Source of the DNA: Kordia sp. TARA_039_SRF
GTDB taxonomy: Bacteria; Bacteroidota; Bacteroidia; Flavobacteriales; Flavobacteriaceae
Length of the DNA stretch: 64,000 nucleotides
Direction: 5' to 3'
Assembly: GCA_006383075.2 (NCBI GenBank)
Contig: SMNH02000008.1
Coordinates: forward strand, 124,001-188,000
The translations under genes were made by a program, and so were the position numbers. Shown in pieces: positions 11,425-45,670 of the stretch. Under the pieces are notes generated by a model, which ran no database searches, was not told the DNA's origin, and worked only from the letters and a program-made list of their open reading frames with translations. Position 1 is the first letter of the stretch. Each line of letters begins with the position of its first letter.

Positions 11425-11469
11425 TAAACATACAAAATAACAATCTCAATTGCTTACGGGAATTCCGTA
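11425..11469 (-). promoter_or_regulatory. Peptide-gene promoter: palindrome plus -7 box
   Basis: TACGGGAATTCCGTA (11455-11469) is read on the minus strand. It is followed after exactly 22 bp by TATGTTTA (11432 down to 11425), and 27 bp later by the ATG at 11397. The same spacing is found at 33602, 36094 and 45448. Confidence 0.7.
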
Positions 11470-11506
11470 ATTAACAGTATATCAGTGGTTTTTTAATAAT
11501 TCTTAA

Positions 11507-11536
11507 CGAAAAATTCCAGCTAAACTGCGGAAAAGA
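11507..11536. repeat. Second copy of the 7370-7399 intergenic repeat
   Basis: 30 bp with 26 identities to 7370-7399, sharing CGAAAAATT and ACTGCGGAAAAGA. It lies in the gene-free stretch 11398-11758, where no coding frame was seen. Confidence 0.5.
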
Positions 11537-11702
11537 TAAAGCCATTGTTGCTTTAAGATAGAACTCTGGTTAAGCAATTCTCTTCAAAAATAGAATTCTC
11601 AAAACTTTAACGTTTCCTCGCAAAATAAAGCCTTTTACCAAGCGTTTTATTAAAGAATCTTGTAGTTCAGGAGATATAAAGTTTCCTGTCTTTGTTAGTA
11701 AA

Positions 11703-11734
11703 CAAAAAGAGCAGCTTTCCGAAAAGCTGCTCTT
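11703..11734 (-). terminator. Terminator of clpB
   Basis: 12-bp stem AAGAGCAGCTTT / AAAGCTGCTCTT with a 4-nt loop and a T-run on the minus strand, about 25 bp after the clpB stop. Confidence 0.85.
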
Positions 11735-11758
11735 AGTTTAGTATATGTTTGTATTTTA

Positions 11759-14359
11759 TCAATTCTCTATCAAATCTGTTTGGTTTCTGAATACCAATTC
11801 GTCATTGAATTCATCTAACAAAATGATGCTGTCAGCCGTAACTTTTCCACTGAGAATTTCCTTAGAAAGCGCATTCAACACTTTACGTTGAATGACACGT
11901 TTTACAGGTCGCGCACCAAACTGCGGATCAAATCCTTGTTGTGCTAAGTAGGTAATTGCTTCTTCGGTAGCATCTAGCGTGATTTGCTGTTTTGCTAGCA
12001 TTTTGATAGTTTTCTTTATCTGCAAACGTACAATTTCCTTAATGTCATTTTGCGTTAACGGCGTAAACATGACAATATCATCAATACGATTTAAAAACTC
12101 TGGTCGCACTGCTTTTTTCAGTAAGCCTAAAACTTCCACTTTGGCAGCTTCCGTAGCGCTGTACATGTCTTGCATCGCTTTGAATTTTTCTTCAATGATA
12201 TGACTTCCCATGTTTGACGTCATAATGATGATGGCGTTTTTGAAATCGGCAACGCGTCCTTTATTATCCGTCAAACGACCTTCATCCAATACTTGCAATA
12301 AAATGTTGAAGGTATCAGGATGCGCTTTTTCAATTTCGTCTAATAAGACTACAGAATACGGTCTGCGTCGAACGGCTTCTGTCAATTGACCACCTTCGTC
12401 ATAACCTACATATCCTGGAGGCGCACCAACCAATCTACTTACCGAATGCGCTTCTTGGTATTCGCTCATATCAATTCGCGTCATGGCGTTTTCGTCATCG
12501 AATAAATAGGCTGCCAATGCTTTTGCCAATTCGGTTTTACCAACACCTGTCATTCCCAAGAAAAGGAAGGAACCAATTGGACGATTCGCATCTTGCAATC
12601 CTGCGCGACTTCTACGAACAGCATCCGAAACTGCAGTGATGGCTTCTTCTTGTCCCACCACGCGTTTATGCAATTCATTTTCTAGCTGTAACAGTTTTTC
12701 GCGTTCGCTTTGCAACATTTTGGTTACTGGAATTCCTGTCCATTTTGCTACGACTTCTGCAATATCTTCATTCGTAACTTCTTCTTTGATAAGCGCGTGT
12801 TCTTCTTGCGTAGCCAAATCTTGTTGCAGCGTATCTAGTTTTGCTTGTGCTTCTTTGATTTTTCCGTAACGCAATTCGGCTACTTTCCCATAATTTCCTT
12901 CACGTTCGGCTCTTTCCGCTTCCGCACGATAGTTCTCAATAGCTTCTTTCGTAGCCTGAACTTGGTCTACAACATCTTTTTCCGATTGCCATTTGGCGAA
13001 AATCTCGTTGCGTTCATCTTTTAAGTTCGCCAATTCAAGATTTAAGGCTTTCAATTTGGCTTCATCATTTTCACGTTTAATCGCTTCAATCTCAATTTCC
13101 AACTGCATAATGCGTCTGTCCAACACATCCAATTCTTCAGGTTTTGAGTTGATTTCCATGCGCAATTTAGAAGCTGCTTCGTCAATCAAGTCAATGGCTT
13201 TGTCTGGCAAGAAACGATTCGTAATATATCGTTGCGAAAGTTCCACAGCGGCAATAATTGCTTCGTCTTTGATACGAACTTTGTGATGTGTTTCGTATTT
13301 TTCTTTGATTCCTCGAAGAATCGAAATTGCACTTTCCGTATCAGGTTCCGTCACGGTAATTTTCTGAAAACGACGTTCTAAGGCTTTGTCTTGCTCAAAA
13401 TATTTTTGGTATTCGTCCAACGTTGTCGCACCAATCGCTCTCAGTTCTCCTCGCGCTAGTGCAGGTTTTAAGATGTTTGCTGCGTCCATGGCACCTTGTC
13501 CGCCACCAGCGCCAACCAGCGTATGGATTTCATCAATAAAAAGAACAATATCACCATCAGATGAAGTTACTTCTTTGATAACAGCTTTGAGACGTTCTTC
13601 AAATTCTCCTTTGAATTTCGCACCTGCTATCAACGCGCCCATATCGAGCGAGTAGATTTGCTTGTCTTTTAAGTTTTCTGGAACATCTCCTTGAATGATA
13701 CGATGCGCCATTCCTTCTGCAATAGCAGTTTTACCAACTCCAGGTTCACCGACCAAAATTGGGTTGTTTTTCGTTCTACGAGAAAGAATTTGCAATACAC
13801 GACGGATTTCTTCATCACGACCGATGACCGGATCGAGTTTTCCATCGTTTGCCAATTGATTCAAGTTATTTGCGTATTTGTTCAATGAATTATAGGTTTC
13901 TTCCGCATTTGCAGAAGTTACACGTTCGCCTTTGCTCAATTCTTGAATGGCAGCTTTTAAGCCTTTTTCAGTAACACCTTGATCTTTTAAGATTTGTGCA
14001 ATTTTACTATTCGATTTGAAAATAGCAAGAATCAAATGTGAGGTAGAAACGAATTCGTCATTCATTTCTTTCGCAACAATAGTTGCATCAGTCAGCGTTT
14101 TTCCCGCGGCAGGTGATAACATAATATTCGCGCCGCTGACTTTAGGAAAGCTGCTAAGCGTGCTATCCAAAATTTGATTCAACAACGATACATTTACGTT
14201 GAGTTTCTTTAATATGAAAGGCAATACATTATCGTCTACATCAATAATTGCTTTGAATATGTGTTCGTTTTCAATTTGTTGATGTCCGTATGTTTGCGCC
14301 AGTTGCTGCGCTTGCTGCACAGCTTCTTGTGATTTTATAGTGTAATTGTTAAAATTCAT
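11759..14359 (-). CDS. clpB: ATP-dependent disaggregase chaperone ClpB
   Basis: 866 residues, normal for ClpB. It extracts polypeptides from aggregates together with DnaK. The order is an N-terminal Clp repeat domain (1-145), AAA-1 with Walker [14 protein letters not shown] near 205 and [12 protein letters not shown] near 274, a coiled-coil middle domain (about 405-525) that marks ClpB rather than ClpA/C, and AAA-2 with [14 protein letters not shown] near 605. It has its own terminator. A sigma-54-like element precedes it on the minus strand, with TGNCA-type palindromes further up. Confidence 0.97.
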
Positions 14360-14390
14360 AGCGTTGAGTTCTGTGTTTTTTGGTAGTTTT

Positions 14391-14406
14391 GCAATAGTTA
14401 TTCCAA
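14391..14406 (-). promoter_or_regulatory. Sigma-54-like (-24/-12) promoter of clpB
   Basis: The minus strand reads TTGGAATAACTATTGC, with GG and GC 12 bp apart as in the TGGCAC-N5-TTGC consensus; CAC is not conserved. The -12 end lies about 31 bp before the clpB ATG. Two TGNCA-N3-TGNC-like sites occur upstream at 14419-14431 and 14450-14462 and could bind an activator. Confidence 0.5.
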
Positions 14407-14517
14407 TTGAAAATACAAGACAAAATGGCGGTTAAACCTAGAATTTACAAGACATTTTGGCATTTTCGCAAGTTTTCAATACAATGAACGACTCATACTT
14501 TAAATGTACAGATACTT

Positions 14518-14913
14518 ATGGGAATATTCAATAAAATATTTGGAAGTTCAGAAGCTTCCGAAACACCAGAACCTTCAAAAGTTCCATGGATTCCACTGAC
14601 AGAAATGGCACAATTGGATACAATTGAAGAAACGTCAAAAACGACACCTGTGGCTATTTTTAAGCACAGTACGCGTTGCGGAATTAGTAAAATGGTTATC
14701 AATCAATTTGAGCGTTCGTACGATTTGGAAGCAAACCAAATGCAGGTGTATTACCTAGATTTGTTGAATTACCGTCCAATTTCCCAAGAAATAGCGGCGC
14801 GTTTTCAAGTATGGCATGAAAGTCCTCAATTACTCATTATAAAAAACGGTGTTACCGTTGCGCATGCGTCTCATAGTCAAATCAATACAGTTGCATTAAC
14901 ACAGTTTGTATAG
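14518..14913 (+). CDS. ytxJ: Bacillithiol-system redox protein YtxJ
   Basis: 131 residues with a thioredoxin-like fold. It contains FKHSTRCGISKMV near residue 44, the TRCG motif with one active cysteine typical of YtxJ, a proposed monothiol bacilliredoxin. The family accompanies bacillithiol synthesis, and bshA is encoded in this window at 50067. The N-terminus (MGIFNKIFGSSEASETPEPS) is a linker-like tail. Divergent from clpB across 158 bp. Confidence 0.85.
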   Translation: MGIFNKIFGSSEASETPEPSKVPWIPLTEMAQLDTIEETSKTTPVAIFKHSTRCGISKMVINQFERSYDLEANQMQVYYLDLLNYRPISQEIAARFQVWHESPQLLIIKNGVTVAHASHSQINTVALTQFV

Positions 14914-15034
14914 TCTTTCTTTTCGGTAGTTTTTTTGAGAATTAAGAGTTTTTTAAGACAGATTTTACGGTCTATTTTGTACTTTGAAATCACATCATTC
15001 AATCAATCAAAACTCGTCTTAAAAACTACTGCTA

Positions 15035-16147
15035 ATGAATTCTTCCACTATTGATATATGGATATTGCTGTTTTTTGCATTTGCCATTCAAGCTTTTGTG
15101 CTCGGAATTTTATTTTTTCTTAAACCCAAAGGTGATCGCGTCGCCAATAGCATATTTGGCGTTTTTCTACTGCTTTTCTCGTATAACCAATTGTTCAATT
15201 GTGCTTTTTGGACAGATTATCAAAGTTCGTTTTCTGAGCATTTGTCGTTTACCAATTTTATTCCGTGGGTTTCCTACGGTCCTTTATTATATGTCTACTT
15301 AAAACGTGTACTTCGCAGTTCTTTTTCATGGCGCGATTTGGGACATGTACTTCCGTTAGTTTGGATATTTTCTGTATATGGACGTTTTTATTTTTTATCA
15401 CATGATGTCAAAGTTGCACTAGCTTCGTCAAATGGTTATTCTGCGTATGTCAATTGGTGGCCAATTCCTCGATACAATATGGTTGATGTGGTAACATTAC
15501 TGATGGTTTTTTACGCCGCAAAAATGTATATCTTGTATCGAAAAGAAAAAAACAATGTGTCAGAAGCCAAGCGTCTTTGGATTAAATCGTTGTGGTTGTG
15601 TTTTATGGGATATGCCTTTGTATTCTTTTTATATTTTATTTTGATTTATTTTCGACTGATTACACCGTATAAAGATTATTTAATTGGTTATGCGATGGTC
15701 TTTTTCATTGGAATTGTGTCGTATTTCAGTTTTATGCAACCCAATATATTTTCAGGAGCGGTTAAAATTCCGTTTGTAAAGTATCAAAACAACGGTTTGT
15801 CTTCATCTATGGCAATTGAAATGAAAGATAAGCTGACTGCGTTGATGGAATCGGAAAAGTTGTATTTGGACAGTGCGCTTACGCTAGATGTGTTGTCAGA
15901 ACGTTTGAATTTATCGCGACATCACACGTCACAATTGATTAACGAGCATTTTCAAATGAACTTTTTTGAATTCGTGAATACGCATCGCATCAATGAAGCC
16001 ATCAAGCTATTGCAAGACAAGCAAAGCAATTTAAACATCAACGAAATCATTTACACAGTCGGATTCAACAATCGCACTTCTTTTTACAATGCTTTTCGAA
16101 AAAAAACAGGAATTTCACCAAAGTCATATCGAAGTCAACAAGCTTGA
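15035..16147 (+). CDS. AraC-family regulator with seven-helix membrane N-terminus
   Basis: 370 residues. Residues 5-245 contain seven predicted membrane helices. Residues 265-367 are an AraC-type double HTH: LTLDVLSERLNLSRHHTSQLINEHF near 285 and INEIIYTVGFNNRTSFYNAFRKKTGISPKSY near 335. Such membrane AraC proteins are common in Flavobacteriia and probably sense a membrane or extracellular signal. The target is unknown. The Nudix gene follows 69 bp downstream on the same strand. Confidence 0.9.
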   Translation: MNSSTIDIWILLFFAFAIQAFVLGILFFLKPKGDRVANSIFGVFLLLFSYNQLFNCAFWTDYQSSFSEHLSFTNFIPWVSYGPLLYVYLKRVLRSSFSWRDLGHVLPLVWIFSVYGRFYFLSHDVKVALASSNGYSAYVNWWPIPRYNMVDVVTLLMVFYAAKMYILYRKEKNNVSEAKRLWIKSLWLCFMGYAFVFFLYFILIYFRLITPYKDYLIGYAMVFFIGIVSYFSFMQPNIFSGAVKIPFVKYQNNGLSSSMAIEMKDKLTALMESEKLYLDSALTLDVLSERLNLSRHHTSQLINEHFQMNFFEFVNTHRINEAIKLLQDKQSNLNINEIIYTVGFNNRTSFYNAFRKKTGISPKSYRSQQA

Positions 16148-16216
16148 TTGTTTTTCATCACTTGAAAGTATATCTTTGATTTGTGAAGCTAAAGCAAGCC
16201 CTTAAATACCCAAAAA

Positions 16217-16765
16217 TTGGAACTTATTGACATCTTAGACGCACATGGAAACCCAACAGGCGAAATACTTCCCAAACGAGAAGTACATCGTTACGGACAT
16301 TTTCATGCGTCTACGCATTTGTGGTTGTATACCAACACAGGGAAAGTCGTATTGCAATTGCGTGCGGCGACAAAACCTAATTTTCCAAATCGCTGGGATG
16401 TGTCGGTAGCGGGACATATAAGTAGTGGTGAAACTGCCAAAGAAACTGCTATTAGAGAAGCAGCGGAAGAGTTAGGAATCAAAGTCTCGTCAACAAAACT
16501 ACAGCACATTGGTCGCTTCCGAATTGATTATCAACATGCAGACGATTATCGCGATAGAGAATTCATCACCATTTTTGCTTGTGAAATTCCTGATGCACCT
16601 TTGCAGGTAACGCTACAAGAAGAAGAAGTTGCGGATGTTACATTAATTTCACTAGCAAAATTAGAAGCAGAACTTGCAGATACCAAACTTGCCCAAAAAT
16701 ATGTACCATTTAACAAAGCTTATGCAAAAGAAGTCTTTGAAAAGTTGCATACATTATTTGATTAG
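16217..16765 (+). CDS. Nudix hydrolase, YfcD/isopentenyl isomerase-like
   Basis: 182 residues starting from TTG at 16217 (MELIDILDAHGNPTGE); no ATG fits the conserved N-terminus. The Nudix box G-x5-E-x7-REAAEELG is complete (GHISSGETAKE then REAAEELGI, near residues 65-87). It probably hydrolyses a nucleoside diphosphate-X substrate with Mg2+; the actual substrate is unknown. It shares the RxxVHRYGHFHASTHLWL pattern with YfcD-type proteins, so IDI-like activity is also possible. Confidence 0.85.
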   Translation: MELIDILDAHGNPTGEILPKREVHRYGHFHASTHLWLYTNTGKVVLQLRAATKPNFPNRWDVSVAGHISSGETAKETAIREAAEELGIKVSSTKLQHIGRFRIDYQHADDYRDREFITIFACEIPDAPLQVTLQEEEVADVTLISLAKLEAELADTKLAQKYVPFNKAYAKEVFEKLHTLFD

Positions 16766-17103
16766 TTTTAACTCTCTTTATTTTGGTTTTTAGTCTATTT
16801 AGTTGATTGAGTTGTTTTTAAACAAATAAATTGTAAGATAAATTACGAATACGACAAAGACATCATTCAAAACTAAATTCTGTCAGATCTCCATTCTTTT
16901 TTTAGCGATAAAAATGTCATTTTTTACGACGAAAAGGCAGGGGCTAGAATAGTTGGTTTATTTTAATAGCTTTTTTACTACTAAACAGTATTTTTTTTAT
17001 TACAAAAGGTCAAAAAGCGATAATGACATTTTCCAAACCGTTTTATCTTTTTTAATAACTTTTAAACGTTTTCTTGTGATTTTAGCACTAAAAACCAATA
17101 GAT
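16766..17103. other. Gene-free stretch, nothing convincing
   Basis: AT-rich DNA between the Nudix gene and the UpxY promoter region. Short direct similarities (GCGATAAAAATGTCATTTT and GCGATAATGACATTTT) occur near 16905 and 17017. A 82-codon open frame at 16953-17201 has no family features. Confidence 0.4.
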
Positions 17104-17118
17104 TACGGTTTAACCATA
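17104..17118. promoter_or_regulatory. TACGG-N5-CCATA palindrome before the UpxY gene
   Basis: TACGGTTTAACCATA is the inverse of the TATGG-N5-CCGTA form found before peptide genes. Spacing to the next TAnn-like box (TATGGTTT, 24 bp on) is not the exact 22 bp, so its role here is less sure. Confidence 0.4.
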
Positions 17119-17147
17119 ATCATTTTGTGATTCTCCCTTTTTTATGG

Positions 17148-17197
17148 TTTTTAGGGTGTCTTTCGGGAAAAAAATCTACTATAATTGTATATGAAAA
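17148..17197 (+). promoter_or_regulatory. Promoter-like block shared with the 19693 peptide gene
   Basis: An ungapped 50-bp alignment with 19605-19654 gives 36 identities. Conserved parts are TTTTTA, TTTCGG, CTAC, ATAATT and TGAAAA. Confidence 0.5.
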
Positions 17198-17878
17198 ATG
17201 ATACATCAATTCAACTATTTTGATGAATTGATTAAAAGTAATTTTAAAAATTTCTCACACTTAGAATTTTATGAAAGAGCACCTCATGTGACTGAGGAAA
17301 GCGAAGCTTTGTCAAAAATTAAATTAAATAATCAGAAGAAAATTAGCTTAATGATGAATCAAAAGTATCTAGGCTGGCATGTTCTTTATGTCAAGTCTCG
17401 TCATGAAAAAAAAGTTTTAGATGCATTAAAAAAATTATCGCTCGAAGCTTTTTTACCATTAGTGAAAACAAAGAAAAAATGGAGTGATCGTACCAAAATT
17501 GTAGAATTGCCTTTAATTCCTTCCTATGTATTCGTAAACTCAAAATCGCCTAAAGACTTTCATAGAGCTTTATCTGCAGATGGCGCATGCGCGTATATCA
17601 GATTTGGAAGTTCATTTGCAAAAGTTTCAGAAAAAGAAATTGTACAACTGAAACTCTTAGCCGGATCAGAAGATGCTATGAATATAGAAGTCGGTTCACA
17701 AGTTCCTAAAGTAGGAGAATTAAGAGAAATAGAATTTGGAGCATTACGCGGTTTACAGTGCGAAATTCTTGAAGTAAATAATGTCAATAAAATTGTAGTA
17801 CGGATTGAACAGCTACAGCAAAATATTACCGCAATTCTTCCTTCATATTACTTCGAAAGCGAAGCAGTTGCAGTATAA
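17198..17878 (+). CDS. UpxY/NusG-family transcription antiterminator
   Basis: Up to 226 residues. The NusG N-terminal (NGN) domain begins at LGWHVLYVKSRHEKKVLDAL near residue 57 and holds LIPSYVFV near 110. A C-terminal KOW-like part follows (VGELREIEFGALRGLQCEI near 172). UpxY proteins act on polymerase to let long polysaccharide or secondary-metabolite operons be read through. The family usually starts at the MMNQKYLGWHV stretch, so the true start may be 17351 rather than 17198. No long operon follows now: only a decayed condensation-domain gene. Confidence 0.8.
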   Translation: MIHQFNYFDELIKSNFKNFSHLEFYERAPHVTEESEALSKIKLNNQKKISLMMNQKYLGWHVLYVKSRHEKKVLDALKKLSLEAFLPLVKTKKKWSDRTKIVELPLIPSYVFVNSKSPKDFHRALSADGACAYIRFGSSFAKVSEKEIVQLKLLAGSEDAMNIEVGSQVPKVGELREIEFGALRGLQCEILEVNNVNKIVVRIEQLQQNITAILPSYYFESEAVAV

Positions 17879-17879
17879 T

Positions 17880-18360
17880 TCATAACACCTGCATACCAAC
17901 TACTGAACGTAAATTTGTTTTTAATTATTGGATTTCAGAAGCTGAAAAAAACAGACGGTTTCTGCAAAAGAGCAATTTCAACTTGTAACTACTGAAAAGT
18001 TGTTGATTCCTACTGAGAATATTGCATATTGTCTAAAAATCACCAGAAACATTTATTGACGATTTATTGTCAGAAGGATTCAATTTGGCAACAACGCCAC
18101 TTTTCAAAGAACCACTCATCCAAAAGAGTGCTACGAAAACTATTTTGAAGTGGCTATTCATCACATTATTAGCGATGGTTGTCACTTGAGGTTTTTACGA
18201 ATAGAAATCATTAAAAACTATCTGCAAGCAAGCAAAAGAATCGCTGCGACATAACTCTGTTAGGAATTCAATTCAAAGGACCTGTTTCAGAAAATCTTCA
18301 AATTGATGACGAATGCGTATCATCTAGTTTACAAATTTTCACTATCTAAGTCAAATCACA
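17880..18360 (+). pseudogene. Decayed NRPS condensation-domain fragment
   Basis: No intact frame, but conserved pieces remain. At 18061-18120 one frame reads DLLSEGFNLATTPLFKEPL, like the FDL-x-x-PLFR segment of condensation domains. From about 18129 a second frame reads YFEVAIHHIISDGCHLRF, with HHIISDG (18159-18179) matching the catalytic HHxxxDG motif, then a TAA after about 27 further codons. At least one frameshift and several stops separate these. It directly follows the UpxY gene, so an NRPS operon may once have stood here. Confidence 0.65.
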
Positions 18361-18447
18361 AACTACTTCCCAGAAAATATCAACACACAAAAAGTTTATT
18401 TTAGGATTTTTATGTGCAGTCAGTAGAATCGTTACGTTAAAAAAATG

Positions 18448-18553
18448 ATTTTGGGCGTATCCTTCGCAAGCTCAGGTCGGGCTTTCGCAGTCGCTCTTTC
18501 CGTTACACTACAAGGAGCTCCAACAAGCGCTCAATCCCTTACGCGGAATTTAA
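18448..18553. repeat. GC-richer intergenic repeat-like element
   Basis: A GC-rich island (GGGCGTATCCTTCGCAAGC, CGGGCTTTCGCAGTCGCTC, AAGGAGCTCCAACAAGCGCT) in AT-rich DNA. It resembles REP-like extragenic elements common in Flavobacteriia; this is from memory of the family, not a search. It lies between the decayed NRPS piece and the LytTR gene. Confidence 0.5.
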
Positions 18554-18644
18554 TTACCATTTAGATTCTTAAGGTAACTTTGTTGTATTTATCAAAAACA
18601 AAACATTTTTGTAAATTAATGTCACTTTTTAAATTCAAAAAATT

Positions 18645-19538
18645 TTGACACTAAGTAAAATACAGTACTACTTTCAACAACAGCATCCGCTAATTGATGA
18701 TACAGCGTACTATCGCAAACTCGCGATTATTGTTGGAATTGTACTTACAATTTTCGTTTACATCTTTGATCCGTATGATAATTATGTTGCTATTCCGAAA
18801 TTTGAAATTCCTATCAAAATCATTCAACTAGGTTATGGAATCAATACTACGATTGTCATTTACGGGTTGTATTGGCTGTTATTCCGAAAGTTGAAGTTTT
18901 CCAAAGGAAATCGACCTTGGAAAACATACCATCATTGGTTATTGCTCGTTGCTATTTTGGCGATTGCTGGTTTTATTGGCACCGTATACCATCGTTTTAT
19001 GATGGATGTTGGAGAAGTAGATACACACTACTATGTATTTGTCACCATTCCGCGCTCCATTGTCATTGCTATTCCGTTGTTTGTCATTACCTTACTTTTA
19101 GATAGACTGTATACTTCACAAAATACAAAAACAGTAAGCACAACCACGATTTCAGCAATGCAAAATGGTAAAATAAATGATATATCGGATAAAAAAATAG
19201 TGCTTCAATCGCCTGTGGTCAATCAAAATATTGAACTACAACCTTCAAAAATAGTATACATCAAAGCTTCTGGGAATTATGTTGAAATTTGTAGTAGTGA
19301 CGCTAACAAACCACAATTACTACGCGCTTCCTTACGATATGTTTCTGAATGTTTAACTTCGTATAGTTTTCTTGTGAAATGTCATCGACAATACTATGTG
19401 AATATTCACCAAATTCAGTCTTACACAGGAAATTCACAACGTATTATACTTCATCTACGAACGTCAAAAGAACAAATTCCTGTCAGTAGAGGATATGTTA
19501 AAAAAATACTTTCTCACATAAAAGAGCTTAAAAAGTAG
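18645..19538 (+). CDS. LytTR-family DNA-binding regulator with membrane N-terminus
   Basis: 297 residues from a TTG start; no ATG is available before the first helix. Residues 25-165 hold four predicted membrane helices (for example LAIIVGIVLTIFVYIFDPYD). Residues 195-295 are a LytTR domain: IELQPSKIVYIKASGNYVEI near 205 and FLVKCHRQYYVNIHQIQSY near 245. LytTR proteins bind direct repeats and often control peptide production. It ends 154 bp before the peptide gene at 19693, making it a candidate regulator of the three-peptide cluster (inference). Confidence 0.85.
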   Translation: MTLSKIQYYFQQQHPLIDDTAYYRKLAIIVGIVLTIFVYIFDPYDNYVAIPKFEIPIKIIQLGYGINTTIVIYGLYWLLFRKLKFSKGNRPWKTYHHWLLLVAILAIAGFIGTVYHRFMMDVGEVDTHYYVFVTIPRSIVIAIPLFVITLLLDRLYTSQNTKTVSTTTISAMQNGKINDISDKKIVLQSPVVNQNIELQPSKIVYIKASGNYVEICSSDANKPQLLRASLRYVSECLTSYSFLVKCHRQYYVNIHQIQSYTGNSQRIILHLRTSKEQIPVSRGYVKKILSHIKELKK

Positions 19539-19604
19539 CTATTCACTCATCACAAAGTACAGTCATTCGTCACAATCTTTTTTAATTTTCTTGATTTTGT
19601 CTTA

Positions 19605-19956: not shown

Positions 19957-19968
19957 AAATAGAATCAT

Positions 19969-27333: not shown

Positions 27334-28107
27334 ATGAACGATCAAGAAGTATATATGCTTGTAGCGGCAACATCCACAGTGTTGCTTATTTTGTTAATAA
27401 CAGTGATTATTTTATTTGTGTTCTTTCAAAAACGTAAACTTAAGTTTATTCTTGAAAAGAAAGAAGCTGAAAAGCGATACATGGAAGAAATTGCAAAATC
27501 ACAAATTGAAATTCAAGAACAAGCCTTGCAAAATATGAGTTGGGAATTGCATGATAATATCGGACAATTGTTGTCGGTAGCACGTATGCATATCAATATT
27601 TTAGGAACACAACTAGCACAAGAAAACAAAGGGAAACTCAATGATATTAGCGAAATTGTTGGCAAAAGTCTGCAAGAAATTCGTTTGCTCTCCAAAACCA
27701 TGAATACGGAAATTATCCAAAACATGGGATTGATTAAATCGATAGAAGTAGAGTTGGAGCGTTTTAATAAGCTCAACTTTTTAGTCGCAACGCTAGAAGT
27801 TTCTGGAGAAGAACAAGAATTAGATATCAAAGAAGAAATCATTCTTTTCCGTATTTTACAAGAGTTTTTCTCCAATGCTATCAAGCATTCCAAAGCTAAA
27901 AACCTCACTGTAACCTTACGTTATGAAGCAGATTGCTTGCGTATTTCGGCTCAAGATGACGGTGTTGGTTTTGACGAAGGAGAAATTGAAAAAGGCTCAG
28001 GATTGATCAATATGAAAAGTCGCGCTGCGATTATAAATGCAGAATTTGAGATGAAATCCGAAAAAAATAAAGGAGTTTCCTTAACTTTATCATATCCCTA
28101 TAAATGA
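27334..28107 (+). CDS. Sensor histidine kinase, NarL/HisKA_3 type
   Basis: 257 residues. One N-terminal membrane helix (residues 8-30) then a coiled coil. The dimerisation box MSWELHDNIGQLLSVARMHI near 64 carries the phospho-accepting histidine. The ATPase has the N box FRILQEFFSNAIKHSKAK near 175 and G box QDDGVGFDEGEIEKGSGL near 205. It has no periplasmic sensor, so sensing must come from a partner. Its stop overlaps the response-regulator start (ATGA). Confidence 0.9.
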   Translation: MNDQEVYMLVAATSTVLLILLITVIILFVFFQKRKLKFILEKKEAEKRYMEEIAKSQIEIQEQALQNMSWELHDNIGQLLSVARMHINILGTQLAQENKGKLNDISEIVGKSLQEIRLLSKTMNTEIIQNMGLIKSIEVELERFNKLNFLVATLEVSGEEQELDIKEEIILFRILQEFFSNAIKHSKAKNLTVTLRYEADCLRISAQDDGVGFDEGEIEKGSGLINMKSRAAIINAEFEMKSEKNKGVSLTLSYPYK

Positions 28108-28769
28108 AAATAATGAAAAAACATTCTGTTGTAATTGTAGACGACCATTTGCTCTTTGCACAATCTTTGCAAGGTTTGGTCGATGCATTTGATGAGTTTG
28201 AGGTTTTGTACCATGTAAAGAATGGAAGCGAACTGATAAAAAAATTATTAGAATCTGAAAATGTCCCAGATATTATTTTGTTAGATATCAATATGCCCGT
28301 AATGAACGGTTTTGAAACGATGGAATGGATTAAAGAAAACCGTCCAAGTATTCAAGTATTGGCATTGTCAATGGACGATCATGAAGAAACTATTATCAAA
28401 ATGTTGCGCTTGGGCGCGAAAGGATATTTGCTAAAAGACATTCATCCAGAAATCTTCTACAAAGCCCTAAACGAAGTGATTTCAAACGGAATTTACTATT
28501 CCGAACGTGTGGCAACCACTTTGCTAAATTCCCTTCACGGTAACGATGAAAAAGAAGCTATCAACGGAAAACAGTTAAAAGACACCGAATTAACCTTCTT
28601 GAAGTTAGCCTGTACGGAAATGACTTATAAAGAAATCGCACAAGAAATGTGTCTGAGCCCGAAAACCATCGATGGCTACCGCGAATCTTTATTCAAACAC
28701 TTCAAAGTAAAGAGCAGAATTGGCTTGGTGTTATATGCTATTCGAAATAATTTGGTGAATAGTAAGTAG
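28104..28769 (+). CDS. LuxR/NarL-type response regulator
   Basis: 221 residues. Receiver domain (1-125): IVDDHLLFAQSLQGL near 11 and the phospho-acceptor aspartate in ILLDINMPVMNGFE near 55. The C-terminal GerE/LuxR HTH (150-215) reads YKEIAQEMCLSPKTIDGYRESL near 180. It overlaps the kinase gene by 4 bp, so the two are coupled. An internal ATG at 28113 could also serve. The target promoters are unknown. Confidence 0.93.
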   Translation: MKIMKKHSVVIVDDHLLFAQSLQGLVDAFDEFEVLYHVKNGSELIKKLLESENVPDIILLDINMPVMNGFETMEWIKENRPSIQVLALSMDDHEETIIKMLRLGAKGYLLKDIHPEIFYKALNEVISNGIYYSERVATTLLNSLHGNDEKEAINGKQLKDTELTFLKLACTEMTYKEIAQEMCLSPKTIDGYRESLFKHFKVKSRIGLVLYAIRNNLVNSK

Positions 28770-33601: not shown

Positions 33602-33646
33602 TATGGTAAAACCGTAGTCTATTTTCTTAACTTATAACTATCTTTA
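33602..33646 (+). promoter_or_regulatory. Peptide-gene promoter: palindrome plus -7 box
   Basis: TATGGTAAAACCGTA (33602-33616), exactly 22 bp, then TATCTTTA (33639-33646), then 27 bp to the ATG at 33674. Confidence 0.7.
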
Positions 33647-33673: not shown

Positions 33674-33895
33674 ATGTTAAAACAAATTACAAACATTTCG
33701 GGAGTTACACAACTCACTAAAAAAGAACAACAAAAATGTAAAGCAGGATCTCTGAACGATTCATATTATTGTGTTGGAGGGGCATATTTGACAGGAGAAC
33801 CAACTTGTCCTTCATCACATCCTTACATGCATCCGCAAGGGCATTGTCTTTGTTGTAAAAATGAATGGAAGAGTACTTTGATTATAGATGAATAA
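33674..33895 (+). CDS. Small Cys-rich peptide with KKEQ leader, putative exported or RiPP peptide
   Basis: 73 residues. The leader MLKQITNISGVTQLTKKEQQ differs from the LxLKK type and belongs to a flavobacterial group reading MLKxIxN...LxKxEQ, with KAGS where relatives have GG. The core has YYCVGG, then CPSSHPYMHPQGHCLCCKNEW, giving His/Cys pairs that could bind metal. The gene sits behind the conserved palindrome promoter, and a decayed copy follows at 33922. Confidence 0.7.
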   Translation: MLKQITNISGVTQLTKKEQQKCKAGSLNDSYYCVGGAYLTGEPTCPSSHPYMHPQGHCLCCKNEWKSTLIIDE

Positions 33896-34337: not shown

Positions 34338-34550
34338 ATGAAGAAAAGAAATCTTAAATCGTTGAAACTAAACAAAAAGTCAATTTCAAGAATTAACAAT
34401 CATGAACTTACAGGAGGAACAGGTCTTACAGCTGTTGAATTAAGCTGCCATTGGTTTACATGTCATTCTGTAAACAACGATTGTCCTTCAGCAAATGTAA
34501 AGCCTTATTGCTTCGTAAAGTATACTGAACAAGTTGATTGTGAAGGATAA
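34338..34550 (+). CDS. LxLNKK-leader peptide, putative RiPP precursor
   Basis: 70 residues: leader MKKRNLKSLKLNKKSISRI, then ELTGGTGLTAVELSC with GG near residues 26-27. The core has four cysteines (CHWFTCHSVNNDC, YCFV). It is followed 21 bp later by an AAGCGAAC-stem terminator. The palindrome promoter of its neighbour at 33674 is not found here. Confidence 0.75.
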   Translation: MKKRNLKSLKLNKKSISRINNHELTGGTGLTAVELSCHWFTCHSVNNDCPSANVKPYCFVKYTEQVDCEG

Positions 34551-35833: not shown

Positions 35834-36022
35834 TTAATACCAGAAGCAGTAACCGTTTCCGCCACATCTTCCAGCGTCGCAGAATGTGAATCCGCCACTA
35901 TATGGCTGACAACACGTGTTTCCAGACTGTTGGTAACAACCTCTAACAGGTCGTCCACCACTGATGTTTTGTTGTTCAGATTTACTCAAAACAGTTCCTA
36001 CTTTTGAAATGTTTTTTAACAT
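35834..36022 (-). CDS. Small Gly/Cys-rich peptide with KxEQ leader and GG
   Basis: 62 residues from the ATG at 36022 (MLKNISKVGTVLSKSEQQNI, then SGGRPVRGC). The frame can be extended to 36049, but the internal start gives the leader shared with 33674 and the exact promoter spacing. The core is Gly-, Cys- and Tyr-rich (CCQPYSGG, CDAGRCGGNGYCFWY). It may be a secreted or modified peptide. The palindrome promoter lies 57 bp before the ATG. Confidence 0.7.
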   Translation of the reverse strand: MLKNISKVGTVLSKSEQQNISGGRPVRGCYQQSGNTCCQPYSGGFTFCDAGRCGGNGYCFWY

Positions 36023-36049: not shown

Positions 36050-36094
36050 AAAAAGTAAGAATTATATCACTAATCAAACTACGGTTACACCGTA
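36050..36094 (-). promoter_or_regulatory. Peptide-gene promoter: palindrome plus -7 box
   Basis: On the minus strand TACGGTGTAACCGTA (36094-36080), exactly 22 bp, then TACTTTTT (36057-36050) followed by G, then 27 bp to the ATG at 36022. Confidence 0.7.
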
Positions 36095-39616: not shown

Positions 39617-39820
39617 AAGAAAGCTTTCTTTTATGAATAATCAACTAACTTTTATATTTTCGTTTCTTATTCGAAAGCCGTAAAAGTATGGCTCAATATT
39701 TGAAGTGCCAAACCTAGTCGTGTATTTTTATCATACATTTATGATAATTTAATCATAATTAACACAATAAGGAAAGCACAAATCGCATTATTAAGTAACA
39801 AACGAATACAAATCGATAGT

Positions 39821-40981
39821 ATGTATAAATCTTTTTCAATTTTAATTCTTTTTCTTTTTTCTTCTAATTTGATGCTAGGAAACGAAATGCCTTCGTCAGA
39901 AATCACAAAAAAACGAAAGGAATTTGTCGTAATGATTGATCCAGGTCACGGCGGAAGCGATACAGGAACACCAGGAACCAGACGTTATAAAACCACCGAA
40001 AAAGACATTGCACTTGATGTTTCGCTTGCGCTAGGAAAAAAACTGGCAAAACTTCCCAATGTGAAAGTAATTTACACACGAACTAAAGATACATATCCAA
40101 CATTGAACCAGCGAGCTGTAATGACCAACAAGAAAAAAGCGGATTTATTTATTTCAATTCATTGCAATGCACAACCTGGAAAAAATGGAAAAAAGTTTGG
40201 TTCTACAGCGTATGGAGCAGAAACGTTTGTGCTGGGTTTGAGTAACAATAAAACAAACTTAGAAGTTGCCAAACGTGAAAACTCGGTGATTTTCTTGGAA
40301 GATAATTATGAAGAAGTGTATGAAGGCTTTGATCCAAATTCGCCAGAATCTTTAATTAGTTTAATTATTTTACAAGAAGAATATTTAGACCAAAGTATTG
40401 AAATTGCTTCGTACATTCAAAAAGAGTTTAAGGTAACGGCAAAACGTAGAGATAGAGGCGTAAAACAAGCAGGGTTTTGGGTATTGTCAAAAACATACAT
40501 GCCAAGTGTATTGGTGGAATTAGGTTTCTTAACGCATAGAAAAGAAGAAGATTTTTTAAATTCCAAACGCGGAAAAAAAATCATGACGCAGTCGTTGTAC
40601 AATGCGGTTAAAAAGTATATTGACTTACATTCAAAATCTATCACAATCATCACGGAGAACGATATTGATACGAACGATTTAGAAATCGAAGTTGACAATA
40701 CAGAAACAAAAGCATCTAAAATTTACAAAGGTGTTACTTTTAAAGTACAACTTTCGGCAAGTTCAAAGAAAATAGCAACAAAACCATACAACTTCAAAGG
40801 ATTAGATCAAATTTCTCGAGAAAAATCAGGAAACATATTTCGTTATTTTTATGGCGAAACTTCTGATTACGAGGAAATAAAACGCTTTAAAGAAGTAGCA
40901 AAACGCAAAGGATATACCGATTGTTATGTTGTGGCTTTTAAAAATGGAAAAAAAGTTCCATTGCGCGAAGTGCTGAACTAA
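39821..40981 (+). CDS. N-acetylmuramoyl-L-alanine amidase
   Basis: 386 residues. Signal peptide (MYKSFSILILFLFSSNLMLG). An Amidase_3 domain (34-250) with Zn ligands: MIDPGHGGSDTGTPG near 37, TTEKDIALDV near 55, ISIHCNAQPG near 110, and the catalytic glutamate in PSVLVELGFLTH near 230. The C-terminal part (305-386) looks like a SPOR-type peptidoglycan-binding domain (VTFKVQLSASSK). It cleaves peptidoglycan stem peptides during cell separation. The gene pairs with mlaD downstream. Confidence 0.9.
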   Translation: MYKSFSILILFLFSSNLMLGNEMPSSEITKKRKEFVVMIDPGHGGSDTGTPGTRRYKTTEKDIALDVSLALGKKLAKLPNVKVIYTRTKDTYPTLNQRAVMTNKKKADLFISIHCNAQPGKNGKKFGSTAYGAETFVLGLSNNKTNLEVAKRENSVIFLEDNYEEVYEGFDPNSPESLISLIILQEEYLDQSIEIASYIQKEFKVTAKRRDRGVKQAGFWVLSKTYMPSVLVELGFLTHRKEEDFLNSKRGKKIMTQSLYNAVKKYIDLHSKSITIITENDIDTNDLEIEVDNTETKASKIYKGVTFKVQLSASSKKIATKPYNFKGLDQISREKSGNIFRYFYGETSDYEEIKRFKEVAKRKGYTDCYVVAFKNGKKVPLREVLN

Positions 40982-41023
40982 TGCTAAATTAGACGTATTC
41001 TTAGAAAAAAAATAGCTAATTTT

Positions 41024-42004
41024 GTGAAGTTCACAAATACCCAGAAATTGAAAATATCTAGAGAAATTAAAACAGCATTGCTAGCAATTACTGCGCTAGT
41101 ACTCTTATACGTTGGAATTAGTTATTTAATGTCAAAATCTGTTTTTGCAGGCGGTAGAGTGTTTTATGCAGAATATAATGACGTTGGCGGTTTGGTGCCC
41201 GCAACCAAAGTGATGATTAACGGTTATCAAGTTGGGAAAGTGCAAGACATTCAATTGCAACCTTCAGGAAAATCAGTTGTTACCATGGCGTTAGACCACG
41301 ATTTTCAATTCTCCAAAAACAGTACAGTTCAATTGCAAGAAAATGGTTTTATCGGTGGAAAAACATTAGCAATTCTATTAACGCAAGACAATTCTCCCTT
41401 AGCCGTTTCTGGCGATACACTGAAAACTTCTGTAAGTCCAGGGATGATTGATGATATCAAAAGTCAACTCACACCACTACAAACCAAAGTAGAAGGAATG
41501 GTGGTTAGTGCCGATTCTCTTATGACATCGCTCAATGCGATTTTGGATAAAGAATCGAGAAACAGCATCAAAAACAGTTTAAAAGAACTGAATACTACGA
41601 TTGCCAACTTTAAAAATGCTTCAGCCACGTTTAAAACAATTTTAGACGAAAACAAAGAAAAGTTGGGTAACAGCATGGCAAGTATGGAAACCATCACAGA
41701 AAACTTTGCAAAAGTGTCCGATTCGTTATCTAAAGTTGAATTTAACAAAACTGTCAATCAATTACAATCTACCATAAAAAGTCTCGATAATATCGTGGCA
41801 GGTATGAAAAATGGTGACGGTTCTATCGGGAAGCTTTTAAAAGACAAAGAGTTATATGAAAACCTAACAGGAATGACTTTTCAGCTAGAACAGTTGTTTC
41901 AAGACATGAAATTGAATCCGAAACGATACGTACATTTTTCATTATTTGGAAAAAAACCAAAACCGTATAAACCACCAACGGAGGAAGAAGAAAAGAAAAA
42001 CTAA
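41024..42004 (+). CDS. MlaD/MCE-family lipid transport protein
   Basis: 326 residues from a GTG start (MKFTNTQKLKISREI). One membrane helix (residues 18-35) anchors it in the inner membrane. The MCE domain (40-120) reads FYAEYNDVGGLVPATKVMING with GKVQDIQL. A helical C-terminus (150-290) could form a tunnel-like coiled coil. It probably binds lipids for transport between membranes. The ATPase and permease partners are not in the window. It lies 42 bp after the amidase gene. Confidence 0.88.
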   Translation: MKFTNTQKLKISREIKTALLAITALVLLYVGISYLMSKSVFAGGRVFYAEYNDVGGLVPATKVMINGYQVGKVQDIQLQPSGKSVVTMALDHDFQFSKNSTVQLQENGFIGGKTLAILLTQDNSPLAVSGDTLKTSVSPGMIDDIKSQLTPLQTKVEGMVVSADSLMTSLNAILDKESRNSIKNSLKELNTTIANFKNASATFKTILDENKEKLGNSMASMETITENFAKVSDSLSKVEFNKTVNQLQSTIKSLDNIVAGMKNGDGSIGKLLKDKELYENLTGMTFQLEQLFQDMKLNPKRYVHFSLFGKKPKPYKPPTEEEEKKN

Positions 42005-42037
42005 GCGAGAAACTAACCATCAAAAGATTTACTACTT

Positions 42038-43348
42038 ATGGAGTACATTCCTAATATTCTATTTGCCATTCTTTTAATTGCTGGCGTAGGCTATTTCACT
42101 AAAAATGTTCGAAAATTAACGCGTAACATCAACCTAGGGAAAGATGTAGACCGCTCTGATAATAAATCAGAACGTTGGAAAAACATGGCAATGATTGCTC
42201 TTGGACAATCAAAAATGGTGCGCAGACCTATTGCAGGGTTTTTGCATGTTATTGTCTATGTGGGTTTTGTCATCATCAACATTGAAGTACTGGAAATTAT
42301 CATTGACGGACTCTTTGGAACACACAGAATCTTCACCAAAGTATTGCCAGATAGCGTATACGGCTTCCTTATCGGAACATTTGAAATATTGGCTGTATTA
42401 GTATTAATTACGGTAATTATCTTTTGGTTGCGAAGAAATGTTATCAAGCTAAAGCGTTTTTTAAGTGCCGAAATGAAAGGTTGGCCTAAAAGTGACGGAA
42501 ATATCATTCTCTATTTTGAAGTAGTATTAATGACATTGTTTTTAATAATGAATGCTACTGATGTACAATTTCAAGACATGAACTCTGGAAACATCATAAG
42601 TAAGCATATAGCTGGATGGTTTGGTTCAGGTGACCATTTACATACGATTGAAAGAGCTGCTTGGTGGCTACACATTGCAGGGATTTTAGTATTCCTAAAC
42701 TATTTATACTATTCAAAACATTTACACATTCTCTTAGCATTTCCAAATACGTGGTATGCCAACTTAAAGCCAAAAGGAGAATTTAAGAATGATGCAAATG
42801 TGACGAAAGAAGTAATGCTGATGATGGATCCTAATGCTGATCCGTTTGCCGCTCCAGCAGAAGGAGAAGACGAAGGTGAACCCGAAAAATTTGGAGCTTC
42901 AGATGTGCAAGATTTAAATTGGGTACAATTGATGAATGCATATACGTGTACGGAATGTGGTCGTTGTACGAGTGAATGTCCAGCCAATCAAACAGGGAAG
43001 AAGCTATCTCCACGTAAAATCATGATGGATACGCGTGATCGTTTGGAAGAAGTAGGAAAAAATATCGACGCCAACAAAGGCACTTTTGTAGATGATGGAA
43101 AAGCACTCTTAAACGATTACATTACACCAGAAGAATTATGGGCGTGTACGTCTTGTAATGCTTGTGTAGAGGCATGTCCTGTAAATATTGACCCGTTGTC
43201 CATTATCATGGAAATGCGTAAATATTTGGTAATGGAACAATCGGCAGCACCATCAGAATTAAACGTGATGATGGGGAATATTGAAAACAACGGCGCTCCT
43301 TGGCCGTACAATCAAATGGACAGACTTAACTGGAAAGACGAAAACTAA
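42038..43348 (+). CDS. Membrane (Fe-S)-binding protein, HdrC/nitrate reductase gamma-like
   Basis: 436 residues. About five membrane helices in residues 5-235 with histidines fitting haem binding (FLHVIVYVGFVI, GDHLHTIERAAWWLHIAGIL). A cytoplasmic 4Fe-4S pair follows: CTECGRCTSECP near 305 and CTSCNACVEACP near 372. It probably passes electrons from the quinone pool to the adjacent CCG-domain protein at 43370. The electron donor and acceptor are unknown. Confidence 0.88.
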   Translation: MEYIPNILFAILLIAGVGYFTKNVRKLTRNINLGKDVDRSDNKSERWKNMAMIALGQSKMVRRPIAGFLHVIVYVGFVIINIEVLEIIIDGLFGTHRIFTKVLPDSVYGFLIGTFEILAVLVLITVIIFWLRRNVIKLKRFLSAEMKGWPKSDGNIILYFEVVLMTLFLIMNATDVQFQDMNSGNIISKHIAGWFGSGDHLHTIERAAWWLHIAGILVFLNYLYYSKHLHILLAFPNTWYANLKPKGEFKNDANVTKEVMLMMDPNADPFAAPAEGEDEGEPEKFGASDVQDLNWVQLMNAYTCTECGRCTSECPANQTGKKLSPRKIMMDTRDRLEEVGKNIDANKGTFVDDGKALLNDYITPEELWACTSCNACVEACPVNIDPLSIIMEMRKYLVMEQSAAPSELNVMMGNIENNGAPWPYNQMDRLNWKDEN

Positions 43349-43369
43349 TACAACTAAAAAAATACGAAG

Positions 43370-44149
43370 ATGAAAGTACCTACAATGGCAGAATACATGG
43401 CTGAAGGCAAACAACCAGAAGTACTTTTTTGGGTAGGTTGCGCAGGAAGCTTTGATGATAGAGCCAAAAAAATAACCAAAGCTTTTGTAAAAATACTAAA
43501 CAATGCAAAGGTAGAGTTTGCAGTATTGGGAGCAGAAGAAAGTTGTACTGGTGATCCTGCCAAACGCGCAGGAAACGAATTCCTATTTCAAATGCAAGCC
43601 GTGACGAATATTGAAGTCATGAATGCGTATGAAGTAAAAAAAGTTGTCACAGCATGTCCGCATTGTTTTAACACGATTAAAAACGAATATCCTTCACTTG
43701 GTGGAAATTACGAAGTGCTACACCATACACAATTTTTAAAATCGCTATTAGATGATGGACGATTGACAATTGAAGGCGGAAATTTCAAAGGAAAACGCAT
43801 CACTTTTCACGATCCTTGCTATTTAGGTCGCGCTAATGATGTATACGAAGCGCCAAGAGAGTTAATTCGCAAGCTTGATGTGGAGTTGGTCGAAATGAAA
43901 AACTGCCGTAAAAAAGGCTTGTGTTGTGGAGCAGGTGGCGCGCAAATGTTTAAAGATGCTGAACCTGGCAACAAAGAAGTAAACATTGAACGTACGGAGC
44001 AAGCACTTGAAGTAAAACCAGATATCATTGCGGCGGGTTGTCCGTTCTGTAATACGATGATGACGGACGGAATTAAAAATAAAGAAAAAGAAGATAGTAT
44101 TGTGGTACAAGATATCGCAGAATTAATCGCGAATGCGCAAGATTTATAA
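43370..44149 (+). CDS. (Fe-S)-binding CCG-domain protein, HdrB/GlpC-like
   Basis: 259 residues with two CCG domains: VGCAGSFDDRAKKI near 22 with CPHCFNTIKNEYP near 100, and FHDPCYLGRANDVYE near 146 with CCGAGGAQMF near 184 and GCPFCNTMM near 223. They ligate unusual 4Fe-4S clusters. It sits 21 bp after its membrane partner, so together they form a heterodisulfide-reductase-like module of unknown substrate. Its stop overlaps the next start by 1 bp. Confidence 0.9.
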   Translation: MKVPTMAEYMAEGKQPEVLFWVGCAGSFDDRAKKITKAFVKILNNAKVEFAVLGAEESCTGDPAKRAGNEFLFQMQAVTNIEVMNAYEVKKVVTACPHCFNTIKNEYPSLGGNYEVLHHTQFLKSLLDDGRLTIEGGNFKGKRITFHDPCYLGRANDVYEAPRELIRKLDVELVEMKNCRKKGLCCGAGGAQMFKDAEPGNKEVNIERTEQALEVKPDIIAAGCPFCNTMMTDGIKNKEKEDSIVVQDIAELIANAQDL

Positions 44150-44790
44150 TGATGAAAAAAATTAGTTTACTCTTGTTTTTGTGCATGGCTGTAATGGTAA
44201 ATGCACAAACGAAAGACTCTAAAGGTGCGGTATTAGAAGACATTACCAAAGACGTATGCGAATGTGTTTCTAAAAAAGTAGATACAGGAATTTCTCGAAA
44301 AGAAATTGAAGTTCAATTGGGATTGTGTCTTATCAATTCGTATGGAACTTACAGAGAACGTATTGAGAAGTTTATGGAACTTACGTTTAGCGATCCAGAA
44401 GCGATGGAGAAATTTGGAGAAGAAATCGGCATGAAAATGTTGACGGTTTGTCCAGATACCTTTATGGCTTTTGCGAAAGACTTAATAGAGGAAGAAGTCG
44501 AAAACTACACGACTGAAAACGAAACAAACTCAAATATTTCTACAGTTTCAGGTAGTGTTGTAAAATTAGAAAAAGATCAATTTAATATGTTAATTTTTAA
44601 AGGAACTAACAAGCGAACGTATAAACTTCTTTGGCAAGAATACTTTGAAGGCGAAGAATTGTTATTCGACTTTAAAAAATTAAAAAACAAAGACATTAAT
44701 GTTTCTTTTGAAAACAAAGAAATGTACGATCCGAGATTGAAAGACTATCGTACGTACAAAGTATTGCGAAAAATTGAAATTGTAAATTAA
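44149..44790 (+). CDS. Secreted hypothetical protein
   Basis: 213 residues with signal peptide (MMKKISLLLFLCMAVMVNAQ). Residues 35-115 contain three spaced cysteines (VCECVSKK, LGLCLINSYG, TVCPDTFMAF), suggesting a helical Cys-containing domain; the second half is charged, beta-like (LLWQEYFEGEELLFDFKKLKN). No family name is recognised. It is coupled to the Fe-S genes by overlap. Confidence 0.75.
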   Translation: MMKKISLLLFLCMAVMVNAQTKDSKGAVLEDITKDVCECVSKKVDTGISRKEIEVQLGLCLINSYGTYRERIEKFMELTFSDPEAMEKFGEEIGMKMLTVCPDTFMAFAKDLIEEEVENYTTENETNSNISTVSGSVVKLEKDQFNMLIFKGTNKRTYKLLWQEYFEGEELLFDFKKLKNKDINVSFENKEMYDPRLKDYRTYKVLRKIEIVN

Positions 44791-44796
44791 AGACAG

Positions 44797-45282
44797 ATGC
44801 TTGTAGAATTTGACAACATTTCAGACGACGCTAGAGTTTGGATTTACCAAGCCAATCGCTCTTTTAGCGATGTAGAATTGGAGGAAATCAATACAAAACT
44901 TTCCAACTTTATCACGCAATGGACAGCACACGGAAGCGATTTAGAAGCAGCTTTCGACATTAAATACAAACGCTTCATCATCCTTGCGGTAGACCAATCT
45001 AAACAAATGGCGACAGGTTGTTCTATTGATGCTTCGGTACATTTTATTCAACAATTAGAAAAAGACTACAATGTAGATTTGATGGACAAAATGAACGTTT
45101 CGTACAAACAGGGCGAATATGTTGCCTACAAAGATTTAAAAGCCTTTCGAAAAATGGCAAAAGATAGAGCTGTTACAGGAAACACCATTGTTTTTAACAA
45201 CTTAGTCGCGACCAAAGCAGAGTTTTTGGAAAACTGGGAAGTTCCTGCAAAGGAAAGTTGGCACGGACGTTTTTTGAGTTAA
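44797..45282 (+). CDS. Conserved hypothetical protein (often labelled ABC transporter ATPase)
   Basis: 161 residues. Bacteroidota homologues are often called ABC transporter ATPase, but no Walker A, Walker B or signature motif is visible. Conserved-looking stretches are VWIYQANRSFSDVELEEIN near 13 and FDIKYKRFIILAVDQSKQMATGCSIDASVHFIQQLEKD near 50. It is the last gene of the run from 42038 and is followed by a good terminator. Function unknown. Confidence 0.8.
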   Translation: MLVEFDNISDDARVWIYQANRSFSDVELEEINTKLSNFITQWTAHGSDLEAAFDIKYKRFIILAVDQSKQMATGCSIDASVHFIQQLEKDYNVDLMDKMNVSYKQGEYVAYKDLKAFRKMAKDRAVTGNTIVFNNLVATKAEFLENWEVPAKESWHGRFLS

Positions 45283-45312
45283 CTCATCAAATAAATTCAT
45301 AAAATTATACCA

Positions 45313-45345
45313 AAAGACATGCTATACAAAGCATGTCTTTTTTAC
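45313..45345 (+). terminator. Terminator after the Fe-S operon
   Basis: 11-bp stem AAAGACATGCT / AGCATGTCTTT, 6-nt loop, then T-run, 31 bp after the last stop. Confidence 0.85.
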
Positions 45346-45447
45346 TATATAAAATTCATATTTTCGACGCAATGTGAATACTTTGTTGAAAAACACCAAC
45401 AATTGAGCTCTTTTTTTCTTAGATATATAATTTTCAAGTAATTGAAC

Positions 45448-45492
45448 TATGGAATTGCCGTAAAAGATTGATTTTTAAATATGCTATCTTTA
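45448..45492 (+). promoter_or_regulatory. Peptide-gene promoter (now before a pseudogene): palindrome plus -7 box
   Basis: TATGGAATTGCCGTA (45448-45462), exactly 22 bp, then TATCTTTA (45485-45492), then 26 bp to the ATG at 45519. Confidence 0.7.
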
Positions 45493-45518
45493 TAAATAAG
45501 ATTTAATGCAAAATTAGC

Positions 45519-45670
45519 ATGGAAGAAGCATTTAGTATCTAATTTACAAGCAGAAACTGTAAAAAGAGCTGGAACATAAGATACGTGTAACAATTATCAA
45601 ATACCGACAAAAAAATACCCTTGTCCAACAGCCAACACGCGGTGATTGGACTTGTGGTTGTCCAAAGTAA
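45519..45670 (+). pseudogene. Decayed RiPP-type precursor gene
   Basis: The ATG at 45519 is frameshifted from the rest. In the next frame, WKKHLVSNLQAETVKRAGT matches the family leader, ending in AGT-TAA (45577-45579) where relatives have GG. Continuing past the stop gives TCNNYQIPTKKYPCPTANT; a second frameshift then gives RGDWTCGCPK and TAA at 45668. It sits at the expected distance from the conserved promoter and before a terminator, so it is an inactivated member, not random DNA. Confidence 0.7.

Follow-up and report, generated by a model that had tools for sequence, protein, structure and literature searches.

A 64,000-nucleotide stretch of the Kordia sp. TARA_039_SRF genome (contig SMNH02000008.1, positions 124,001 to 188,000 of the forward strand; 'the window') carries four scattered small-peptide genes behind one exact promoter layout, in which the palindrome TAYGG-N5-CCRTA stands 22 bp before a TAnnTTT box. 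That this layout defines a regulon is near certain. It is also likely, at a probability of about three in four, that the palindrome serves as operator for a single RcsB/NarL-type response regulator paired with a tetratricopeptide repeat (TPR) histidine kinase. Sequence evidence for this is provided by the motif, its exact spacing, the set of genes behind it, its enrichment throughout the genus, its linkage to the regulator gene in other Flavobacteriaceae and its co-occurrence with that gene.

In the proposed mechanism, which is one of class II activation, a dimer of the regulator would be centred at about −42, next to the place of the missing −33 element, and would recruit the housekeeping polymerase that recognizes the −7 box TAnnTTT. 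The Kordia switch would turn on dispersed precursor peptides resembling those of ribosomally synthesized and post-translationally modified peptides (RiPPs), along with a small number of secreted proteins. The operator also occurs in other Flavobacteriaceae, usually in two copies, where it lies directly behind the regulator gene and in front of a conserved small-RNA-like element. We infer that the regulator binds directly and that it activates rather than represses, activation by the bound protein being the likely outcome.

One promoter layout before scattered leader peptides

The four palindromes reported in the first-pass annotation are all exact matches, at 11455..11469 (minus strand), 33602..33616 (plus), 36080..36094 (minus; the 36094 given for it is its 5' end) and 45448..45462 (plus). 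In each case a −7-like box starts 22 bp past the palindrome: TATGTTT (11426..11432, minus), TATCTTT (33639..33645, plus), TACTTTT (36051..36057, minus) and TATCTTT (45485..45491, plus). The distances of 57, 57, 57 and 56 bp from palindrome to ATG were likewise confirmed, as were the kinds of gene downstream. These are a 63-amino-acid LxLNKK/GG leader peptide gene (11206..11397, minus), a 73-amino-acid KxEQ leader peptide gene (33674..33895, plus), a 62-amino-acid KxEQ/GG leader peptide gene (35834..36022, minus) and a broken leader-peptide gene (45519..45671, plus) whose frame stops within a few codons; no open reading frame (ORF) of at least 20 amino acids starts 20–200 bp downstream of this fourth palindrome. 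The 63-amino-acid peptide matches the lanthipeptide leader family NF038153 weakly (12.4 bits, cut-off 22), and the 73-amino-acid peptide has no family match in NCBIfam or Pfam. The list of four had overlooked a fifth exact palindrome (17104..17118), which lacks a box at 22 bp and has a NusG-domain gene (17198-17878) downstream, a context that is similar in a second Kordia species (G006, L214). Five exact palindromes in the window compare with 0.03 expected by chance, a number reached in none of 100 shuffles, and four of the five have TAnnTTT exactly 22 bp on.

The whole genome (4.59 Mb in 27 contigs) was scanned, and about 3 kb on either side of the 44 sites outside the window was examined. 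The outcome favours the first-pass reading: the motif is far commoner than its control, with 49 palindromes against nine for the pattern read backwards, which suggests that about nine of the 49 are chance occurrences. The preference for one spacing is sharp: of 98 site-orientations, 29 have TAnnTT at offset 22, against a mean of 1.36 and a maximum of 5 at the 59 other offsets, and 21 have the stricter TAnnTTT there, against a mean of 0.63 elsewhere. In a logo of the 29 boxed sites, only the palindrome and the box are strongly conserved, the remainder showing scattered A/T preferences, and no TTG is found at the −33 position. A sigma-A box TAnnTTTG at −12 to −5 is described for Flavobacterium psychrophilum in a passage of PMC9723704. 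If the box here is that element, the palindrome would extend from about −49 to −35 with its centre at about −42, near the −41.5 of class II activators and at a fixed spacing from the core promoter. The earlier suggestion that the palindrome sits where such an activator would touch polymerase is consistent with this centre and with the missing TTG, though unproven.

Behind the 29 boxed sites lie 22 intact leader-type peptides (17 LxLxKK and five KxEQ) and the window's broken one. The promoter is thus shared by peptide genes, as first proposed, but the regulon is not purely one of peptides, since it includes three secreted proteins of about 500 amino acids and one M57 metallopeptidase. Two of the secreted proteins were scanned in Pfam and have Peptidase_S74 and a type IX secretion system sorting tail; the third (L043) was assigned by sequence resemblance. 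The remaining two boxed sites precede a 48-amino-acid GG-containing ORF at 154 bp (L033) and no clear gene (L055). Seen from the peptide side, a palindrome with two or fewer mismatches and a box at 22 precedes 24 of 135 LxLxKK ORFs (0.2 with shuffled upstream sequences) and 10 of 25 KxEQ ORFs (none when shuffled), in stretches that are motif-enriched.

Of the 20 unboxed palindromes, 11 lie inside ORFs and another (L036:5101) probably does; one (L031) is within a sequence resembling the end of a tRNA, one (L032) has a weaker box and stands before an LxLxKK peptide, and six are intergenic (window 17104, L021, L028, L034, L038 and L040). Behind the last of these is a 298-bp stretch that is 91% identical between two Kordia species (L040:3001 and L171:1501 in G006), with no ORF of 25 amino acids and a terminator-like hairpin; it is possibly a Kordia small RNA.

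Among 60 relatives searched, the palindrome is enriched in all 11 Kordia genomes (37–69 against 4–14 for the control), while most of the others show no enrichment and two a mild one (G018, 21/6; G024, 19/8). The arrangement recurs in G006, where 32 of 40 distinct palindromes examined have the box at 22; the 40, out of 69, were drawn from the 15 heading the list and from 21 regions chosen by eye. These 32 sites precede 27 peptides (one at 177 bp) and four S74-type proteins recognized by resemblance, the last being an ORF-less site in reverse orientation.

The peptides of the regulon look like stand-alone precursors. No lanthionine enzymes were found beside the peptide genes. The genome has five LanC-like genes, and even the closest is separated by over 20 kb from any of the 29 boxed sites sharing its contig. 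A search of the genome with NF038153 gave at least 117 matches, 26 of them over the cut-off; the figure is a lower bound because scores cover 150 of the 172 initial candidates and the list omits a known peptide, at window 34338. For the KxEQ peptides Pfam returned no informative match. Of the larger ORFs near boxed sites, 89 of 107 were scanned, and the best 25 of 143 Pfam families were mostly housekeeping. Two M57 metallopeptidases adjoin palindromes (L026:3083-4213 and L019:3391-4443), one with the promoter and one divergent from a regulon peptide; they may be leader peptidases.

The window also holds peptide genes outside the regulon. A 70-amino-acid LxLNKK/GG peptide gene (34338-34550, plus) lies between two regulon members and has no palindrome, which makes it a natural contrast. 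Five further LxLxKK-type ORFs (8702, 8951, 9226, 19693 and 20389, all plus) have no palindrome at two or fewer mismatches with a box at 22. At the left end, a 1188-amino-acid ORF (93-3659, plus) resembles, by eye, an adenylation/carrier protein fused to a PLP (pyridoxal phosphate)-dependent acyltransferase-like domain.

A candidate regulator and the RNA-like element behind it

In the two relatives with mild enrichment, G024 and G018, a palindrome lies directly behind the gene of the candidate, a response regulator, itself preceded by a TPR histidine kinase gene. All 11 Kordia genomes carry a single ortholog each, 53–54% identical to the G024 protein, and the seven closest named orthologs are all from Kordia. 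In the present genome the nominated gene lies outside the window (G000:C11:30542-31207).

Outside Kordia, the palindrome (0–2 mismatches) with a box at exactly 22 follows the regulator stop codon in 35 of 35 loci, against 0.3 of 35 in shuffles. These loci are the best-scoring of 75 non-Kordia genomes with a close ortholog, L243 (G025) being excluded because its regulator gene meets the contig end. The palindrome lies 19–244 bp from the stop codon, mostly about 100 bp, and in 27 of the 35 a second palindrome (two or fewer mismatches) starts exactly 22 bp upstream. Named non-Kordia loci give the same picture, with palindrome and box in 67 of 73 (0.3 in shuffles) and a second palindrome in 60 of the 67; some loci belong to both sets, and the genomes are related, so that the two are not independent trials. 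Behind distant homologues (44% identity or less; L244-L252, from the first search) no palindrome with box was found.

Palindrome and regulator also tend to occur together. Among 199 genomes of the family, representing 198 genera, totals for TACGGNWWWNCCGTA were 191 forward against 46 control in the 77 with a close ortholog (E ≤ 1e-60), or 158 against 46 without the two Kordia genomes, whereas the 122 lacking one gave 85 against 86. Five of these 'lacking' genomes have an excess of at least 3, and all five carry regulator homologues at 37–44% identity.

The protein can be nominated, from its domains and profile matches, as a putative RcsB/NarL-like response regulator paired with a TPR histidine kinase. 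In the PDB, a profile of the regulator finds RcsB first (2e-10), followed by VraR and NarL among others; it aligns to RcsB residues 4–195, and also through the helix-turn-helix (HTH) of the window's own GerE-bearing regulator. A receiver domain (Response_reg, Pfam) is present in 10 of 10 regulators, the Kordia protein scoring over the cut-off at 7.2e-10. The cognate kinase in Kordia (L285) has TPR and HATPase_c domains over the cut-off, with HisKA_3 slightly under (21.7 against 24 bits), and the kinase in L189 has a similar domain make-up.

What follows the palindrome in the relatives appears to be a conserved small-RNA-like element, a putative transcript. It comprises a short stem around a loop with an invariant ATCCCTC, then TAATAGC, then a terminator hairpin with paired changes in its stem. 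Of the 35 regulator loci, 33 carry the short CCCT(C) motif, and nine loci gave no gathering-score match in Rfam 15. A covariance model, built partly from the same sequences and used with stricter filters, finds the element at E ≤ 2.8e-7 in nine of the 60 relatives, all of them in genera with a close regulator ortholog; in a tenth such non-Kordia genus (G025) the regulator gene is cut by the contig end. No convincing copy was found in Kordia, where weak model matches (best E 0.0078, in G005; none in the window's genome) were taken as noise. At a separate locus in G024 and G018 (L190:3001 and L192:3001), a perfect palindrome separates a TsaE-like gene, identified by eye, from a small secreted-protein-like ORF. 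In the leader of this ORF, a TTAATTAAATCCCTT stretch resembles the loop of the regulator-locus RNA.

At the sites examined beyond Kordia, leader peptides do not accompany the operator. The ORFs listed behind eight boxed sites in five non-Kordia genera are not leader peptides, and none of the four G024 sites examined with a box at 22 precedes one. The peptide regulon thus appears to have been acquired in Kordia.

Alternative explanations

Several observations weigh against assigning the palindrome to this regulator. None of the seven named Kordia loci has a palindrome behind the regulator gene, so the link there rests on orthology at 53–54% identity. The Kordia palindromes are single and those elsewhere usually tandem, and tandem operators were sought in Kordia and not found. 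Outside the genus, six of the 73 named loci have no palindrome at two or fewer mismatches (3, 3, 3, 3, 4 and 6 mismatches). In the five non-Kordia genera with an excess, the box follows genome-wide palindromes at 22 in eight of 44 cases and at 20 in seven of 44, other offsets reaching four at most, and these sites give weak support for the spacing. The HTH is weak in Pfam, with GerE in two of 10 regulators (best E 0.0088) and an AsnC-type HTH in six of 10. The Mann–Whitney values for palindrome excess against the regulator (p ~5e-6; 1.5e-5 without Kordia) come from related genomes and ignore kinship. Most leader peptides in the stretches examined are also without the promoter.

The lack of a palindrome beside the Kordia gene, and an HTH that differs from that of the relatives' proteins, would fit a real regulon that in Kordia is activated by some other DNA-binding protein preferring similar sites, the regulator–RNA locus of the relatives using the same kind of site. 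This seems unlikely, since the consensus and the 22-bp spacing are identical to those behind the relatives' regulator gene, the palindrome excess is confined to genomes that carry the regulator or a weaker homologue, and a single ortholog is conserved in 11 of 11 Kordia genomes. Less probable still is a repressor overlapping the promoter. From its position beside the −35 region a bound palindrome could block polymerase, but a repressor would not need a spacing to the box that is fixed in 29 sites (FadR-type repressors were set aside on this ground), and the absence of TTG at −33 is what activator-dependent promoters would be expected to show. It is very improbable that the common layout merely reflects a dispersed repeat or a recent duplication and has no regulatory design behind it. 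Some neighbouring peptides do resemble duplicates (L022 and L049; L178/L179 in G006). However, a dispersed repeat was rejected on the promoter logo, in which little but palindrome and box is conserved; the same promoter precedes unrelated proteins (S74-type, M57 and two peptide families), and the enrichment is genus-wide. Other candidates were also set aside. Crp/Fnr sites have an even-spaced centre, and LytTR sites are direct repeats, which disfavours the LytTR-like protein that was recognized at 18645 by eye. A kinase/regulator pair within the window (27334-28769) is about 4.8 kb from the nearest palindrome.

Known systems and the biology of Kordia

Assigned to the nominated response regulator, the switch has its closest parallels in RcsB and other NarL/FixJ regulators, which are the best PDB relatives and likewise use a palindromic operator beside the core promoter. 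RcsB activates the small RNA rprA, and a small-RNA-like element is the probable target in Kordia's relatives. The differences lie in the TPR histidine kinase partner, the divergent HTH, the 15-bp operator with its 22-bp gap to a Bacteroidetes −7 box, and the peptide targets in Kordia. The peptides share LxLxKK...GG leaders with the Bacteroidetes class I lanthipeptides of NF038153. Many precursors are scattered away from LanC-like genes, as in that family and among prochlorosin-like precursors, which are dispersed. The regulon peptides match NF038153 weakly (15 of the 17 LxLxKK peptides at E ≤ 1, best 0.00066), however, and no description of their shared operator-promoter was found in the papers listed. 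A third possible parallel is Rfp18 of F. psychrophilum, a small RNA conserved in flavobacteria; a passage of PMC9723704 mentions a third stem-loop, against two stems here.

Kordia is named as RiPP-rich in a passage of PMC11118758, and lanthionine genes of K. algicida are listed in part of PMC3091789. No report of this operator, regulon or RNA was found among the open-access papers listed on Kordia or Bacteroidetes lanthipeptides, orphan precursors in Flavobacteriaceae, Rfp18 and other flavobacterial small RNAs, and response regulators. To our knowledge, few operators are known in the phylum Bacteroidota. The analysis supplies a candidate regulator, its operator and a family-wide small-RNA-like module. 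It also offers a testable switch for numerous precursors of peptide natural products in a marine genus rich in RiPPs; because these precursors lie far from LanC-like genes, they cannot be grouped by cluster.

We lean slightly towards the view that a two-component system, with a small RNA encoded directly behind it as its ancestral output across Flavobacteriaceae, was rewired in Kordia. There the RNA would have been lost, and its operator–promoter, with unchanged spacing, would have come to precede over 30 scattered RiPP-like peptide genes. If the rewiring is true, one sensor would release the whole peptide set at once, and the Kordia regulon would provide a readable example of regulon rewiring.

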